NCBI GenBank assembly: GCA_029219465.1
Contig: JAQXTL010000004.1
Coordinates: 186,001-250,000, forward strand
Direction: 5' to 3'
Source: Methanobacteriaceae archaeon
Lineage (GTDB): Archaea > Methanobacteriota > Methanobacteria > Methanobacteriales > Methanobacteriaceae
Length of the DNA: 64,000 nt
In this document: piece by piece, positions 43,755 to 57,221 of the stretch
Numbering within the stretch: the first letter of the stretch is position 1
Layout of the letters: every line of letters begins with the position of its first letter
Position numbers and translations under genes: made by a program
The notes under the pieces: model-generated
Databases searched by the model: none
Told to the model about the DNA's origin: nothing
What the model saw: only the letters and a program-made list of their open reading frames with translations

Positions 43755-45335
43755 ATGTTAAAAGAGTTCAATTTAAATAAAAAAGATAAAGCATATTTAA
43801 TAGCTATTTTATTATTTAGCACAATATTAGTTGGATATTATATCAACTTTAATAATTCAATTGGTATTGCATGTTCTGATGTGTATGTTTATCTTTTAAA
43901 TGCTCTTTTTTATACTGGAGAAAAAATAAGTACAACAAGTTTTGTTTATATCTCTCCAGTAATCTGTTTTTTAACTTCACTTCTTTTTAGAATAGGATTA
44001 GTGGATAAATTAGCAATATTTATCGTTACTGGACTATTTGCAATAATTGGAAATATCGGATTATACATTTTACTTAGAAAATTCTTTAAAGAAGAGTTAA
44101 GCCTTCTTGGTGTGATAATTTATTCTTCATCATCACTTTACCTAACCTGGCTTGCAAACGGAACATTAGACATTCCTGGTGTTTCAATGATTATATGGAT
44201 TGCAATTATTACTTTAATCGCAATTAAAGAAAATCCAAAATACTACCAGTACATAATTCCAGTAATGGCTCTTGGATTTTTCACAAGATACACCATTATT
44301 CTAACAATTCCAGCATTTTTCTTGTTTTATGTTCTTGAAAACGGATTTGCAATAAAACCAGAAGATTGGAACTATATGAAAAAAGGATTGCTCATAGGAG
44401 TGGCTATTGGAGTAATCTTACTTGCAATTGTACTAATTATGGGTAATGGTCAATTCGAATTAGGAAACCAGATGATGAGCGGAATTAAAGGAACAAGTGG
44501 TTCTGTAAAAGATCCAGCTTACACTCCTGATGTTGGATACTATTTGAAAAACTATCCTAACTTCATATCAAATTCACATACTGTATTTGAGGCAAACCCT
44601 GTATTAAACTCCCCTACAATCCTATCATATATTGTATTTGCATTATTATTTGTTGGAGCAGGATTCTGGCTATATGATAACAGATTTAATCTTAAAAAAC
44701 ATGATAAAATTGCAATTATAGTATTACTAATAGGAATATTAAGCTTTACAAGAGTTACTTCAATAATTACATCAATTTTAATTTATATTGGAATATATTT
44801 ACTTGCAAAAGATAGAAATTACAATGTAGGAATATTTATGTTAGGCTGGATTTTGGCAAATGCAATTTTCTTAAGCTTTAATATTGTTAAAGTAAACAGA
44901 TACATACTTCCAACATTTCCAGCATTCATATTCTTTGTTTTAGTAGCAATAGAAAATATCCACTCACACATCAAAATTAATAAAAATATAATTCCAATAG
45001 CTTTGATAGTGTTGTTTGTAATTCAGGCATTTGCATTTACTGCAACCTTTGAGCCAACAAACAAATATCTTGCTCCAGAAGAGATTTCAAACTACATTAT
45101 TGATAACAATCCTGATTACAAAAACATGACTATTGGTGTTTACAATGTAAGACCATATAGCTGGTGGATTGGAACAAATATCGAAGGAATACCTTCAAGT
45201 GTACACAGCAAAATAGATCAAAGTAATATCACATATTATATTTCAAACCATCCTATTAACCTGACAAATTTTACCATGGTTAAAAATATTGATACTTTGT
45301 ATTTATATAAAAATAATAAAACTCCTTTTAATTAA
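43755..45335 (+). CDS. GT-C type membrane glycosyltransferase (PMT/ArnT-like)
   Basis: This 526-residue protein has about eleven hydrophobic segments and a soluble C-terminal part. A short acidic motif after the first membrane segment (GIACSDVYVYLLNAL) fits the catalytic Asp of lipid-linked-sugar GT-C enzymes. GFFTRYTIILTIPAFFLF near residue 173 resembles the GT39/GT83 group. It would glycosylate an outer-face acceptor. It follows the lipid synthase by 38 bp on the same strand. Confidence 0.78.
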   Translation: MLKEFNLNKKDKAYLIAILLFSTILVGYYINFNNSIGIACSDVYVYLLNALFYTGEKISTTSFVYISPVICFLTSLLFRIGLVDKLAIFIVTGLFAIIGNIGLYILLRKFFKEELSLLGVIIYSSSSLYLTWLANGTLDIPGVSMIIWIAIITLIAIKENPKYYQYIIPVMALGFFTRYTIILTIPAFFLFYVLENGFAIKPEDWNYMKKGLLIGVAIGVILLAIVLIMGNGQFELGNQMMSGIKGTSGSVKDPAYTPDVGYYLKNYPNFISNSHTVFEANPVLNSPTILSYIVFALLFVGAGFWLYDNRFNLKKHDKIAIIVLLIGILSFTRVTSIITSILIYIGIYLLAKDRNYNVGIFMLGWILANAIFLSFNIVKVNRYILPTFPAFIFFVLVAIENIHSHIKINKNIIPIALIVLFVIQAFAFTATFEPTNKYLAPEEISNYIIDNNPDYKNMTIGVYNVRPYSWWIGTNIEGIPSSVHSKIDQSNITYYISNHPINLTNFTMVKNIDTLYLYKNNKTPFN

Positions 45336-45415: not shown

Positions 45416-46960
45416 ATGAAAGTTGTATGCTGTAAGAACTGTGGTGCAAAATACCAACTCAATGATGACGATGACATATCCACATTTGAGTGTTCTTCAT
45501 GTGCAGGTGACTTAGAATACTTAGAAGACTATTCTAATGAAGAAAATGAATCCAATGACTCCGCTATTAGTCAAACAAGATACAATAATTCATATATTGT
45601 TCAGTGCCAAGATTGCGGATTAAAATACAAAATCAAAACTACTGACAGCATTCTTGATTATGAATGTGACAGTTGTGGTGGATCTTTAAGATATTTGGAT
45701 GAAAATTTAAACAAAGAATTAGATTCCTATATCGAAGAGAGAAAAGTAGAGATTCAAAACATTAGAAAAGAAACAATCCCTAATGAACCAACATCTGAAG
45801 AATTTACTACAGATTATGATAATACCTCAATAAAAACATTTACTGATAGACTTGAAAACTTCTTCTCAGAAGAGCATATGAGAAAAATAGCTGATGCTGA
45901 AAAAGAAGAAGAACAAAAAGAACCAGTAATGAAAAAAACAGCAAGAACAACCATACCACAATCCGTTTTATCAAAATTTGGAAGAGAATTCGATATTCCT
46001 CAAACTAATGACTATGACACTCTTAAAAATTTCCTTAAAGAAGAATTTTTCAAAGGAATTGAAGAAGATTATTATTCAGCAAATATTGTTGAATCAAAAC
46101 CTAAAAAGAGTTTTCTTGATAAAATTAGTTTAAGTGAACCTGAAATTGGAGGTATAACTGATGCTCCAGTTCCAGATATAGAAGAAGAACTTAAATTTGA
46201 AATTGAACCTTCAAAAATACCAAACTTTGATGGAAATAAAGTTCCTGTTATTATCGGAGCTGTGATTTTCATTTTGAGTATAATTGAAATTTTAACCATA
46301 AATGGTGGTATTGGAATTGCTGCATTGTTTATTGGAGTAATCATTTTATGTTATGGACTATATAGAAATAAAGACATAAAAGAGACTGAAGAAAGAACAA
46401 GAATTATCAGAGAACACTTACTTAGTCTTCCAGAAGAGTTTTATGTATTCTATAATGTTAGAACTCCAACATCATCTTCAGGTATTAATCACGTTGTAGT
46501 AGGACCAACTGGAATATATGCATTGCTTTCACAAAAGTATAATCCAAAACTTAGATTAGAATCAGAAAATGAAAATTTGAATCTAATAGGAAGCACTACT
46601 TCTGATGAAGAAAGATTTGAAGATATTGGCAGTTATGGTAAACAAAGATTTAAATATACTACCAAACAGGCTAAATTCCCACAAGACAATAAAGTTAAAC
46701 AAAAATCATTAAGTTTAGGAGAAGATTTGATTAACTTCCTTAATGATAATAACATTAAAAATTGTTTTGTTGAACCATTAGTTGGATTCATAAACCATGA
46801 AGTTGTAGTTATAAACATGCCTTTAACTGATGAAGACTTGTTTATTGAAGAATTACTTCATAAAATCCAAAATTCAACTGTAAAATTAGATTCTGAAACA
46901 ATCAACAAATGTGCTGTTTTAATTAACAAATATTCAGCTGATTGCTCATCAGAATTTTAA
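45416..46960 (+). CDS. double zinc-ribbon membrane protein with a NERD-like domain
   Basis: This 514-residue protein has two N-terminal zinc ribbons (CCKNCGAKYQ with FECSSC, and CQDCGLKYK with YECDSC). A long charged linker follows, then two adjacent membrane segments near residues 277-312 (VPVIIGAVIFILSIIEIL, GIGIAALFIGVIILCYG). A domain resembling NERD has SSSGINHVVVGPTGIYALLSQK near residue 348. NERD nucleases have Asp and Glu where this has Asn and Leu/Ser, so it is probably not a nuclease. Function is unknown. An SD GAGG precedes the ATG. Confidence 0.7.
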   Translation: MKVVCCKNCGAKYQLNDDDDISTFECSSCAGDLEYLEDYSNEENESNDSAISQTRYNNSYIVQCQDCGLKYKIKTTDSILDYECDSCGGSLRYLDENLNKELDSYIEERKVEIQNIRKETIPNEPTSEEFTTDYDNTSIKTFTDRLENFFSEEHMRKIADAEKEEEQKEPVMKKTARTTIPQSVLSKFGREFDIPQTNDYDTLKNFLKEEFFKGIEEDYYSANIVESKPKKSFLDKISLSEPEIGGITDAPVPDIEEELKFEIEPSKIPNFDGNKVPVIIGAVIFILSIIEILTINGGIGIAALFIGVIILCYGLYRNKDIKETEERTRIIREHLLSLPEEFYVFYNVRTPTSSSGINHVVVGPTGIYALLSQKYNPKLRLESENENLNLIGSTTSDEERFEDIGSYGKQRFKYTTKQAKFPQDNKVKQKSLSLGEDLINFLNDNNIKNCFVEPLVGFINHEVVVINMPLTDEDLFIEELLHKIQNSTVKLDSETINKCAVLINKYSADCSSEF

Positions 46961-46976
46961 TTCTTTTTTTATTTTT

Positions 46977-47975
46977 TTATGATAACATATCATAATCAAT
47001 TAATGAACCTTTAGAAATAGTTTTATTCGCTTTTTTACCAATCACATTATCTATCTCAGACGGTGAAATTCCACTTCCAGGTCTTTTAATTATAATATCA
47101 GATTCATTAATTAATTCGCCCATCTTAATATCTTTTTTAGCACAAATAGACTTTCTAACACAGTTTCTAGAATATGACTCGCAAATTAACGGTTGTTTAT
47201 TTTTAAAACCATTAATTTTAGATAATACATCCATATTCAAATTAAAAATTCTAACATCTTCTTCATCAATTGAAAATTTATGATTTTCTAATGATTTATC
47301 CAAAGTAAAGTATTTTTCCAAAACAACAGCACCATAGTTGTATGCAGTTGTTAATGTGAACATATAATTATCGGAGATAGTGTAATCACTGTAACCTACT
47401 TCATAGCCTTCAAATGACTCTGATAAGTCCTTAATCATTAAAAGATTTGCATCCCTGAGTTTTGTAGGATAAGATAAAACAGCATGCATAATTACAGTGT
47501 TAAAATTAGAATTATCTTCAATACAATCAATAGCTGCTTTGATTTCTTTTATATTGGATGCACCAGTTCCAAGCAATATTGGCTTTTGTTTTTTTGAAAT
47601 ATAATCAATAAATGGAATATTTGTCAAATCACCAGAAGCTATTTTATAAACATCCACAAATTCATCCAATTCATCAACAATATTCTCATTTGCAGGAGTT
47701 ATTATGAAAACTAAATCCAACTGTTTAGCATAGCGGGCCAATTGTTTATATTCATCTAAGGTTAATTGATCCTCAATTAACTCATTATCATGACCACAAT
47801 GCAAGAATTCAGAATCACCAACATGAAAATTAACTCCATTTACGCCAGACATCTTACATTTGTCAATCAGTAGTTTTGCAACATCAAAATATTGCAAATT
47901 TTCTCTATTAGCCAAATCATAATAATTAAAACTAATCTCACCAACTAGAAACGGACGTCTGCGAAATGTTTTCAT
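46977..47975 (-). CDS. NeuB-family nonulosonic acid synthase homologue lacking metal-ligand histidines
   Basis: NeuB condenses PEP with N-acetylmannosamine (or a dideoxy sugar) to make sialic or related acids. This 332-residue protein has the NeuB barrel (ILLGTGASNIKEI at 134, HAVLSYPTKLRDANL at 164, EVGYSDYT at 192). An SAF/antifreeze-like C-terminal domain has KRPGSGISP near 289. The family's SDHT and EKHF histidines, which hold Mn in the meningococcal enzyme, are Tyr198 and Tyr222 here. NHNG near the start is NYYD. It sits 4 bp downstream of a neuA-pseG fusion. It may be altered in chemistry or inactive. Confidence 0.8.
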   Translation of the reverse strand: MKTFRRRPFLVGEISFNYYDLANRENLQYFDVAKLLIDKCKMSGVNGVNFHVGDSEFLHCGHDNELIEDQLTLDEYKQLARYAKQLDLVFIITPANENIVDELDEFVDVYKIASGDLTNIPFIDYISKKQKPILLGTGASNIKEIKAAIDCIEDNSNFNTVIMHAVLSYPTKLRDANLLMIKDLSESFEGYEVGYSDYTISDNYMFTLTTAYNYGAVVLEKYFTLDKSLENHKFSIDEEDVRIFNLNMDVLSKINGFKNKQPLICESYSRNCVRKSICAKKDIKMGELINESDIIIKRPGSGISPSEIDNVIGKKANKTISKGSLIDYDMLS

Positions 47976-47979
47976 AAAA

Positions 47980-49656
47980 TCACTTCATTATAAATTTTCT
48001 ATACTGTTCACGAACAACAGAAGAAATATTTTCATAACCATGATACAAATCAATAGCCCTCATTTTATCATGCATATTCATTCTAAGTTCATGGTTGTTA
48101 ACAAGTTCTAAAAACTCATTTATGAAATCCTCTTTTGCAAGTGAATCAGCATCACCAAGATTTATAATACCATTTGCACTATTAGCAAATACATGAGTAC
48201 GTTCTATATCATTTTGATAAACACAGATTGTAGGAATACCTAATGAACAGGCATCATACATAATTTTACTAGCAGAAGCAATTAAGATATCTGCCTTAAA
48301 TACAAAATCACTTACATTAGAAACATTCTGATAAATTTGAACTAGAGGGTTTGCTTCAAATCTGGATACTAACTGTTCAATATTTTCATAACCTCTACCA
48401 ACAATAACATTTATTTTCTTTTCGTAAGTGGTTGACAAAATAGCCTCTAAAAACATTTCAGATAAATTTTTAGGATCACTACCTTCAATAAGAATTAAAA
48501 TATTACTTACATCCTGAGTAATTACCTTACGAGGCTGGAAATAAAACTCATCTTCAAGAACGTGGAACTTCTGACCATTATAAACATTAGAGTCACTTAA
48601 ATCATGTTCATATAATGAATCAAAAACAACATGTGCAAGTTTGGAACCTTCACCTAAATCATCAAAATTAACAGTGAAAAATCCTCTATTTTTTAATTCA
48701 TCCATATATTCAACAGAAGTATCTGATACATCATTAAGAACTATCTGAGGATTAAATTCATCTAAAATGTTAAAAATGTCATTCTGATTATTATAACATT
48801 TACAGTTAAAACCGAATTTTTCAATCAGTTTATGTCCATATTCATACTGTTTATCTAAAACAAATAAAATATCATGAGAAACAAGTTTTGATGCAAATGA
48901 TAAGCAACTACCTACTCTTCTGGTTCCACCATCATCATCACTAATTACAATTGCAACTTTTTTCCTTTGAATAATTGCATCAACAACTGCCCAGTCCATA
49001 TAATCATCAACAACAATAGCTTCTTCACGGGAGAGATTGATTATGTCAATATTATCCCCAATGTAAGAATCATCATTGATAAATCCTCTACGTGTTGCAA
49101 CAATTGCTCCTGTTTCTTTGAAGTTACTTGGCAATTCATGAGTATTTACCCTTTCAATGTAATTTGGGAAATATCTTTTGTTATCTTCATCATATCCCCA
49201 GAATAGTTGTTTATCTTCAACAACAGAAATTACACTTTCAAGCCCAAAATCATCAAATTTCTCAATAGCTGAGTTTAAAGTGCTTATTTTAACCAAAGGA
49301 GATGTTGGCAACATTGTAATTACTATATCATACTCATCAAATGTTGATTTTTCTTTTTGTACAATAGAATTGAAAATAACAGATTCTAAATTAACTTTCC
49401 CTTCAGATGATTCTTCAGAATACTTAATAACACTTGCTCCAAATTTTTCAGAAATAAAAGCAATTTCACTATCATCAGTAGTTACAACAACATCATCAAC
49501 ATATTGTGATGATTTAGCAGTTTGAATTGTATAAGAAATTAGAGGTTTATTATCTAATAACCTAACATATTTACGAGGAATACCATTTGAATTCCCCTTT
49601 GCCGGAATAACTACTAAAATCTTATTATTATTGAACATGTTAATCCTTATATCCAT
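47980..49656 (-). CDS. fused acylneuraminate cytidylyltransferase and PseG-like protein
   Basis: Residues 1-230 are a CMP-sialic acid synthetase domain. It has ILVVIPAKGNSNGIPRKYVRLL, VVVTTDDSEIA and ITMLPTSPLVK. This activates a nonulosonic acid with CTP. Residues 232-558 are a GT-B-like domain related to PseG nucleotide-sugar hydrolases (VISDDDGGTRRVGSCL, NFDDLGEGSKLAHVVFDSL, LILIEGSDPKNLSE and ASKIMYDACSLGIPTICVYQN). The product probably belongs to sialic, legionaminic or pseudaminic-type decoration of the surface. The start may be Met7 (49638), which has AAGGAT just upstream. It is transcribed with the NeuB-like gene. Confidence 0.85.
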   Translation of the reverse strand: MDIRINMFNNNKILVVIPAKGNSNGIPRKYVRLLDNKPLISYTIQTAKSSQYVDDVVVTTDDSEIAFISEKFGASVIKYSEESSEGKVNLESVIFNSIVQKEKSTFDEYDIVITMLPTSPLVKISTLNSAIEKFDDFGLESVISVVEDKQLFWGYDEDNKRYFPNYIERVNTHELPSNFKETGAIVATRRGFINDDSYIGDNIDIINLSREEAIVVDDYMDWAVVDAIIQRKKVAIVISDDDGGTRRVGSCLSFASKLVSHDILFVLDKQYEYGHKLIEKFGFNCKCYNNQNDIFNILDEFNPQIVLNDVSDTSVEYMDELKNRGFFTVNFDDLGEGSKLAHVVFDSLYEHDLSDSNVYNGQKFHVLEDEFYFQPRKVITQDVSNILILIEGSDPKNLSEMFLEAILSTTYEKKINVIVGRGYENIEQLVSRFEANPLVQIYQNVSNVSDFVFKADILIASASKIMYDACSLGIPTICVYQNDIERTHVFANSANGIINLGDADSLAKEDFINEFLELVNNHELRMNMHDKMRAIDLYHGYENISSVVREQYRKFIMK

Positions 49657-56015: not shown

Positions 56016-57221
56016 ATGAAAAATACTTCTCAAATGCTCTCTGTTAACATTTTTTATAGAAAAACTATAAAGGTGTTAACTATAAATAATAACGAACTGT
56101 TGAAACCCCTTGCCATAAGTTGTAACCACTCGGAAGAAACACAAAGAATATATAGACTAGCATTGAGCCAATATGCTTCTTATTTTAATCAAGACTTACA
56201 TGAACTATTAGCTGAAGCAGAAGAAGATGAAAACAACAATCTTAAATGGAAACGCCGCCGTGTAAAAGCAAAGCTAACAGAATACAGACACCACCTTCTG
56301 CAGAAATATGCTTTAAACACCGTCAAAAAACACATGATTGCAATAAATAAATTTTACAGATTCTATGATATTGAAATACTGAAATTGCCCATGATAAATG
56401 AAAAGTCAATGCAAAAAGCACAGCCTATTTATTTTAAGGATTTACCTGATAAGGAAATCATAAGGGAAGCCGTAAGCATTGCATCCCCATTTATGAAAGC
56501 AGTCATATTGTTTATCTGCTCCAGCGGTTGCGGAAGAGCTGAAACTTTGAATTTGACAATCCATGACTACATCGATGCACTGTCTGAATATGTGCCTAGA
56601 AGAAGCAGGGACATATATGAAATAATTGACATTACCAATGAAGACGACAATATCGTTCCTACTTTTAACATTAGAAGACTTAAAACAAATAAATACTATA
56701 CAACATATTGCAGTCCTGAAGCGGTAAAAGCTATTAACGGTTATCTTTTAACACGTACAGACCCATTAACCAATGAAAGTATATTGTTTAAGACACATCC
56801 GCAATACTTAATCAATAACTTTCAAAAAATCAATGATTATTTGGGTCTTGGAAAAGTAGGAAAATACAATCGTTTCAGAAGCCATATGCTTAGGAAATTC
56901 CATGCTTCAGCATTGTACAATGACGGCATGAGTTTGGATAAGGTTAATGACCTACAGGGCAAGGCTAAAAACAAAACAGATCAGACATATTTTCTAATCA
57001 ATCCTGAAGATTTGAAGTATGATTATATTCAACATCTGCCTGCTGTTACAATAAGTAAAGAGATTGAAAAGATATCAATCAAATCCCCAGAGTTTATGCA
57101 AATGGAAAAAGAAAACCAATCCTTAAAAACAGAAATGAATAAAATGAGGAATGAAATTAACGAGATAGATGATTTGAAGAAAACAGTCCGAGGCATAATG
57201 GAGATGATTGAAGAAATGTAA
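56016..57221 (+). CDS. tyrosine recombinase/integrase
   Basis: Tyrosine recombinases cut and rejoin DNA at attachment sites. The 401-residue protein has an N-terminal SAM-like DNA-binding region (EETQRIYRLALSQYASYF near 41). The catalytic set R174 (SSGCGRAETLNL), K223, H290-M-L-R293 and nucleophile Y325 (TDQTYF) is complete. The usual second His is replaced in LQGKAKNKT. A C-terminal coiled coil spans 350-400. A GTG at 56073 preceded by weak signals could be the true start. Codons such as CGC and CCG, rare nearby, hint at transfer. It abuts rio1 by 16 bp. Confidence 0.85.
   Translation: MKNTSQMLSVNIFYRKTIKVLTINNNELLKPLAISCNHSEETQRIYRLALSQYASYFNQDLHELLAEAEEDENNNLKWKRRRVKAKLTEYRHHLLQKYALNTVKKHMIAINKFYRFYDIEILKLPMINEKSMQKAQPIYFKDLPDKEIIREAVSIASPFMKAVILFICSSGCGRAETLNLTIHDYIDALSEYVPRRSRDIYEIIDITNEDDNIVPTFNIRRLKTNKYYTTYCSPEAVKAINGYLLTRTDPLTNESILFKTHPQYLINNFQKINDYLGLGKVGKYNRFRSHMLRKFHASALYNDGMSLDKVNDLQGKAKNKTDQTYFLINPEDLKYDYIQHLPAVTISKEIEKISIKSPEFMQMEKENQSLKTEMNKMRNEINEIDDLKKTVRGIMEMIEEM

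Follow-up and report, generated by a model that had tools for sequence, protein, structure and literature searches.

The window, by which we mean the whole stretch of 64,000 nucleotides analyzed here, carries on its minus strand the gene for a NeuB-fold protein of 332 aa with a replaced active site (F0, 46977..47975). Four nucleotides upstream of F0 lies F1 (47980..49656, minus strand), which presumably belongs to the same operon. F1 encodes a protein of 558 aa in which a NeuA/PseF-like CMP-sugar transferase is fused to a PseG-like domain. On the other side, a junction of 16 nt (46961..46976) separates F0 from the convergent gene F5 (45416..46960, plus strand), and in canonical relatives the genes F15, F14, and F18 are found at this position. 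F5 encodes a zinc-ribbon/NERD-like membrane protein and is a conserved neighbor, which we treat as such and not as a demonstrated part of the system. The adjacent F4 (43755..45335, plus strand) codes for a PMT_2-family glycosyltransferase-like membrane protein, and the former neighbor F17, a GT4 gene, is gone. F4 itself is variable, with two copies at locus L073 and a protein of only 28% identity at L113. Elsewhere in the window, a Phage-integrase-family recombinase gene (56016-57221, plus strand) adjoins a Rio-kinase-like gene.

Domain search and modeling place F0 in the NeuB family. Both Pfam domains score above cut-off (PF03102, E 3.5e-45; SAF, PF08666, E 4.7e-11), and an AlphaFold model built with 24 orthologues (pLDDT 89.4) has the N. 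meningitidis NeuB structure 1xuu as its top PDB match, with a TM score of 0.85 over barrel and SAF domain. The pseudaminic acid synthase PseI (8h2c) and Bacillus SpsE (1vli) share superfamily and fold with F0. Both retain the canonical metal site. This site is replaced in F0. As the initial annotation had read from the sequence, the metal-binding SDHT and ERHF segments of the meningococcal enzyme pair with SDYT (residues 196-199, 47379..47390) and EKYF (residues 220-223, 47307..47318) in a HMMER alignment, so that Tyr198 stands for His215 and Tyr222 for His236 (N. meningitidis numbering). In the model, Y198 directly follows barrel strand 7 and Y222 forms the end of strand 8. Because alignment, strand placement and the match to 1xuu agree, both metal positions of F0 are tyrosines.

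The replacement extends beyond the metal site. The segment KFQSYKAExIxS of canonical proteins has become NFHVGDSEFLHC (residues 49-60, 47796..47831), a new clade motif that begins with NFH instead of KFQ, and about 16 aa are missing from the active-site loop that follows, compared with canonical orthologues, a loss that the initial annotation had not noted. The SAF domain motif KRPGSGISP (47061..47087) is kept, including Arg298, which corresponds to Arg314 of N. meningitidis; the initial annotation was right on both segments. It had also listed a change from NHNG to NYYD. This reading is correct, but N[YF]YD also occurs in canonical His-His relatives, archaeal as well as bacterial and including Lachnospiraceae, and we therefore excluded it from the change as a family-wide trait. 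The active site of the N. meningitidis enzyme includes Glu25, Gln55, Thr110, Lys129, Tyr186, Ser213, His215, and Arg314 (PMC6795526). F0 keeps the equivalents of E25, K129 (K111), S213, and R314 (R298), but has lost both metal histidines, the first and last residues of KFQ (Lys and Gln), and its substrate loop. Its scores against the NCBIfam models are likewise low, at 196.9 bits for the equivalog TIGR03569 (cut-off 399.65) and 162 for the PseI model TIGR03586 (cut-off 340), although the canonical orthologue at L081 reaches 318.8 bits with TIGR03569, so that canonical relatives also fall under that cut-off.

We then compared F0 with its relatives. Direct NeuB orthologues occur in about 75-80 of the 151 genomes surveyed in the order; residues were compared in 73 full or near-full sequences. 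The source genome (1.66 Mb, 99.57% complete), that of a gut methanogen, lacks a second NeuB, canonical or otherwise, as well as F15 and LegB, and neither PseB nor PseC reaches its cut-off there. The Tyr-Tyr pair is a clade feature: it is found in five species (the window genome G000, G040, G065, G071, and G080), and a sixth, G070, has Tyr-Phe. The other replacements of the clade are common to all six, which excludes sequencing or assembly error and chance as the source of the pair. A seventh member, G096, has the same new motif in a gene interrupted by a contig end. A NeuB identical to that of the Methanobrevibacter genome G040 over the 330 residues compared is also encoded on L124, a contig labeled "Clostridia bacterium isolate Horse_feces368", indicating a contaminated bin. 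Outside this clade, the pairs YH, HY, YQ, HN, NL, and NP occur. Over all lineages, the metal histidines have undergone at least seven independent changes, with Tyr, Phe, Asn, Pro, Gln, or Leu as replacements. This diversity speaks against a special metal site made of two tyrosines, and we excluded a conserved Tyr-Tyr metal site as a general explanation. The suggestion that the protein uses its metal differently is thus not borne out, given the Phe in G070, the mixed pairs of the other lineages and the loss of the KFQ lysine and loop.

Erosion, again not noted in the initial annotation, is also seen in the fusion partner. F1 matches the PseF and PseG profiles with 88.1 and 87.7 bits, both under the cut-offs. 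Its nucleotide-binding (CTP) motif reads IPAKGNSNGIPRKY (49567..49608, minus strand) in place of the canonical IPARGGSKGIPRKN. In the PseG part, the GTGHxYRCL motif has become DDDGGTRRVGSCL (48901..48939, minus strand), with its His, the catalytic one in C. jejuni PseG, changed to Arg. In IVVDDYMDW (48991..49017, minus strand; canonical VDIDNYEDW), the first Asp of the DxD metal pair is Val, leaving VxD. A competent CMP-transferase would carry both R..GGSKG..KN and DxD, and F1 has neither. The DxD position aligns with D209/D211 of the N. meningitidis CMP-Neu5Ac synthetase 1eyr, in which metal-Asp mutants lose most activity and one measured mutant had a 15,000-fold lower kcat (PMC2901514).

In canonical relatives the gene order is F1, F0, F15, F14, with F18 and F17 nearby. 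Pfam identifies F14 as a Wzx-type flippase; F18 is a hexapeptide acyltransferase and F17 a GT4 protein. F15, for which Pfam gives no match, was modeled (pLDDT 90) with a GT-B-like fold, and the nearest structures are UDP-GlcNAc 2-epimerases, TagF/TarL and a bacterial polysialyltransferase, which points to a putative nonulosonate transferase. F15 occurs in 46 of the 151 genomes. A complete pathway would require both F15 and F14, and the window genome has no F15 in a genome-wide search and no F14 at the locus. Canonical F1 and F0 proteins of Methanobrevibacter and Lachnospiraceae are direct orthologues of the window pair, and the archaeal loci have the same gene order. They differ from it in that their catalytic residues are canonical and, in the archaea, in the presence of transferase and flippase. 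Lachnospiraceae L178-L184 and L191 encode a canonical NeuB that is 36-38% identical to F0 and, on contigs that extend far enough, also the fusion; L182 has in addition a neighboring LegB that scores above its cut-off. KFQ, YK, SDHT, EKH[FY], and KRPG are kept by these relatives and by other genera of the Methanobrevibacter group. Since the Lachnospiraceae proteins carry them, the canonical residues are most likely ancestral, and the shared fusion and NeuB suggest gene transfer between gut Clostridia and Methanobrevibacter, in either direction. We considered PseB/PseC and LegB as sources of the precursor for the canonical operon and rejected them. PseB and PseC are above cut-off in a minority of genomes, mostly those with a separate pse-type locus, and LegB is found in no genome of the genus.

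One alternative is that F0 is a metal-independent nonulosonate synthase, in which Tyr has taken over substrate positioning. There is precedent in the superfamily, since non-metallo KDO8P synthases have Asn for the metal Cys and have kept catalysis (PMC3052366), and Arg298 and Lys111 are retained in F0. However, F0 has lost the KFQ lysine and the substrate loop, G070 has Phe instead of Tyr, and with the CMP activation motifs and the transferase gone as well, the product would be left without use. We regard this reading as very improbable.

The state of NeuB follows that of F15. We scored NeuB as canonical by seven positions (E13, K49, Q51, K111, H198, H222, and R298). All seven are canonical in 29 of 30 F15-positive genomes; NeuB is changed in 35 of 39 F15-negative genomes and still canonical in the other four. 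The fusion behaves alike, with DxD kept in 32/32 F15-positive vs. 3/49 F15-negative genomes. Among phylogenetically independent pairs, an average of 5.5 pointed in the same direction and 0 in the opposite one (median p 0.031), a sign test that rests on seven supported pairs. A HypD tree tried as independent species tree for this test was too weakly resolved. C-terminal fragments of the GT4 gene remain at the locus in four F15-negative genomes, G045, G088, G076, and G095. NeuB is fully canonical in the first two, and has the single changes K49M in G076 and Q51K in G095. Fragments beside a canonical or barely changed NeuB indicate that in these lineages the deletion came first and the catalytic loss later. 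The association is not absolute, because G050 (L044 / L109) has lost both histidines to Asn and Pro (SDNT, EKPF) although F15 and F14 are intact; either the loss happened very recently or G050 is a genuine exception. The change noticed in NeuB is not limited to this protein and is part of a dismantling of the whole locus after loss of transferase and flippase.

Despite these losses, F0 is under continuing purifying selection. In the Tyr clade (15 pairs, NG86), NeuB has a dN/dS of 0.175 and the fusion one of 0.188; F15-positive species give 0.040 and 0.065, respectively, and the neighboring HypD gives 0.04. These values are approximate because dS is near saturation. The 15 individual NeuB pairs range from 0.117 to 0.245. 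Had NeuB drifted neutrally by 0.5 changes per site, about 27 stop codons should have arisen in it, and the six species have none. Together with the intact modeled fold, these data uphold the view of the initial annotation that the change is not random decay. A slower decay, in which selection on NeuB merely lags while the gene is being lost, would fit the roughly fourfold higher dN/dS relative to the canonical clade. It would also fit the absence, frameshifting or truncation of NeuB elsewhere in the genus (G041, G046, G052, G099, G064, G069, and G066, a frameshift in G084 and a stop in G103). We nevertheless consider slow decay improbable, since the frames are intact in six species at about 0.5 differences per fourfold site, dN/dS is well under 1 and a new invariant motif has arisen.

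This motif stands out among the replacements. At 23 positions the Tyr clade is fixed for a residue absent from F15-positive species. Seven of them fall within residues 49-60 (NFHVGDSExLHC), and a shuffling test for such a cluster in any stretch of this kind gave p 0.00025. E13, T93, K111, Y169, S196, D197, and R298 are invariant in the clade, so that the site for PEP and sugar is retained in part and some chemistry could survive. Judged by its residues, the pocket is partly kept and partly rebuilt. The initial annotation had offered a different reaction beside different metal use, and this part is possible for the Tyr clade because of the fixed new motif. In such a neofunctionalised enzyme, the rebuilt pocket would catalyze another reaction, perhaps with a metal site relocated to H51, D54, H59, and C60. 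The clustering and the retention of E13, K111, S196, D197, and R298 in a clade whose F15-negative counterparts lost E13 or K111 speak for it. On the other hand, the model has pLDDT <50 in loop 56-66, so that no metal geometry can be claimed, the motifs of the fusion partner erode simultaneously, and no new gene partner came to light. We therefore judge a new reaction unlikely. Equally doubtful, to our mind, is the broader notion that the Tyr-clade NeuB is a new enzyme or metal-binding sensor (H51, D54, H59, C60) working with a fusion that gained a genus-wide function.

F0 thus combines the loss of catalytic residues with conservation by selection, as expected of a pseudoenzyme. The old activities have probably been lost in both F0 and F1. 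Selection has kept both proteins, which indicates a new, non-synthetic role. The distribution of the two genes suggests what this role might involve. Of 67 genomes in the genus, 66 encode the fusion, among them all 37 of high quality. Nine genomes keep it without this NeuB, among them G046, which we take to be M. smithii; the reverse case, a NeuB orthologue without the fusion, does not occur in the genus. The gene is near-universal even where NeuB and the glycan genes have been lost. One TAA codon each is present in the fusion-gene matches of L035 and L041 (G063, G104), with open reading frames near full length. This asymmetry, with NeuB never found apart from the fusion but the fusion persisting alone, is the principal argument for NeuB as a putative accessory to the fusion. 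A NeuB relative is also encoded, with PseB and PseC, in the M. smithii-type pseudaminic acid cluster (G046, G041). This cluster differs from the present system in its separate locus and in a NeuB of only ~31% identity, and the window genome has none. Pseudaminic acid has been reported from M. smithii (PMC6137143). A literature search on NeuB pseudoenzymes returned nothing relevant.

We favor, as the probable explanation, that F0 and F1 are a pair of pseudoenzymes left by a dismantled nonulosonate pathway and retained for another role. The ancestral operon would have been complete: besides NeuB and the PseG-like hydrolase/CMP-transferase fusion, it would have encoded a GT-B transferase and a Wzx-type flippase. 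Transferase and flippase, and with them apparently sugar attachment and export, would have been deleted in the ancestor of the Tyr clade. Afterwards the metal ligands, the KFQ lysine and the substrate loop would have disappeared from NeuB, and the CTP-binding, metal and hydrolase residues from the fusion. F0 would then be a former synthase of a nonulosonate, a sialic-acid-like sugar that is no longer made. Its most likely present function is that of a putative non-catalytic partner or ligand-binding subunit of the fusion, with the new motif around H51-D54-H59-C60 possibly serving this partnership. The fusion itself may have a second function needed by the genus.

Dozens of related species can be arranged in a series that starts with an intact operon and leads through a fresh transferase deletion with remaining fragments and the first catalytic losses to a rebuilt pocket and, finally, loss of NeuB with the fusion kept. 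This graded series makes the transition from pathway enzyme to retained pseudoenzyme directly testable. Where "sialic acid synthesis" is annotated in rumen and gut methanogens on the basis of neuA/neuB homologues, the label may in many cases be mistaken (compare PMC5467289). The finding also indicates a hidden function of a fusion gene that is near-universal in Methanobrevibacter.
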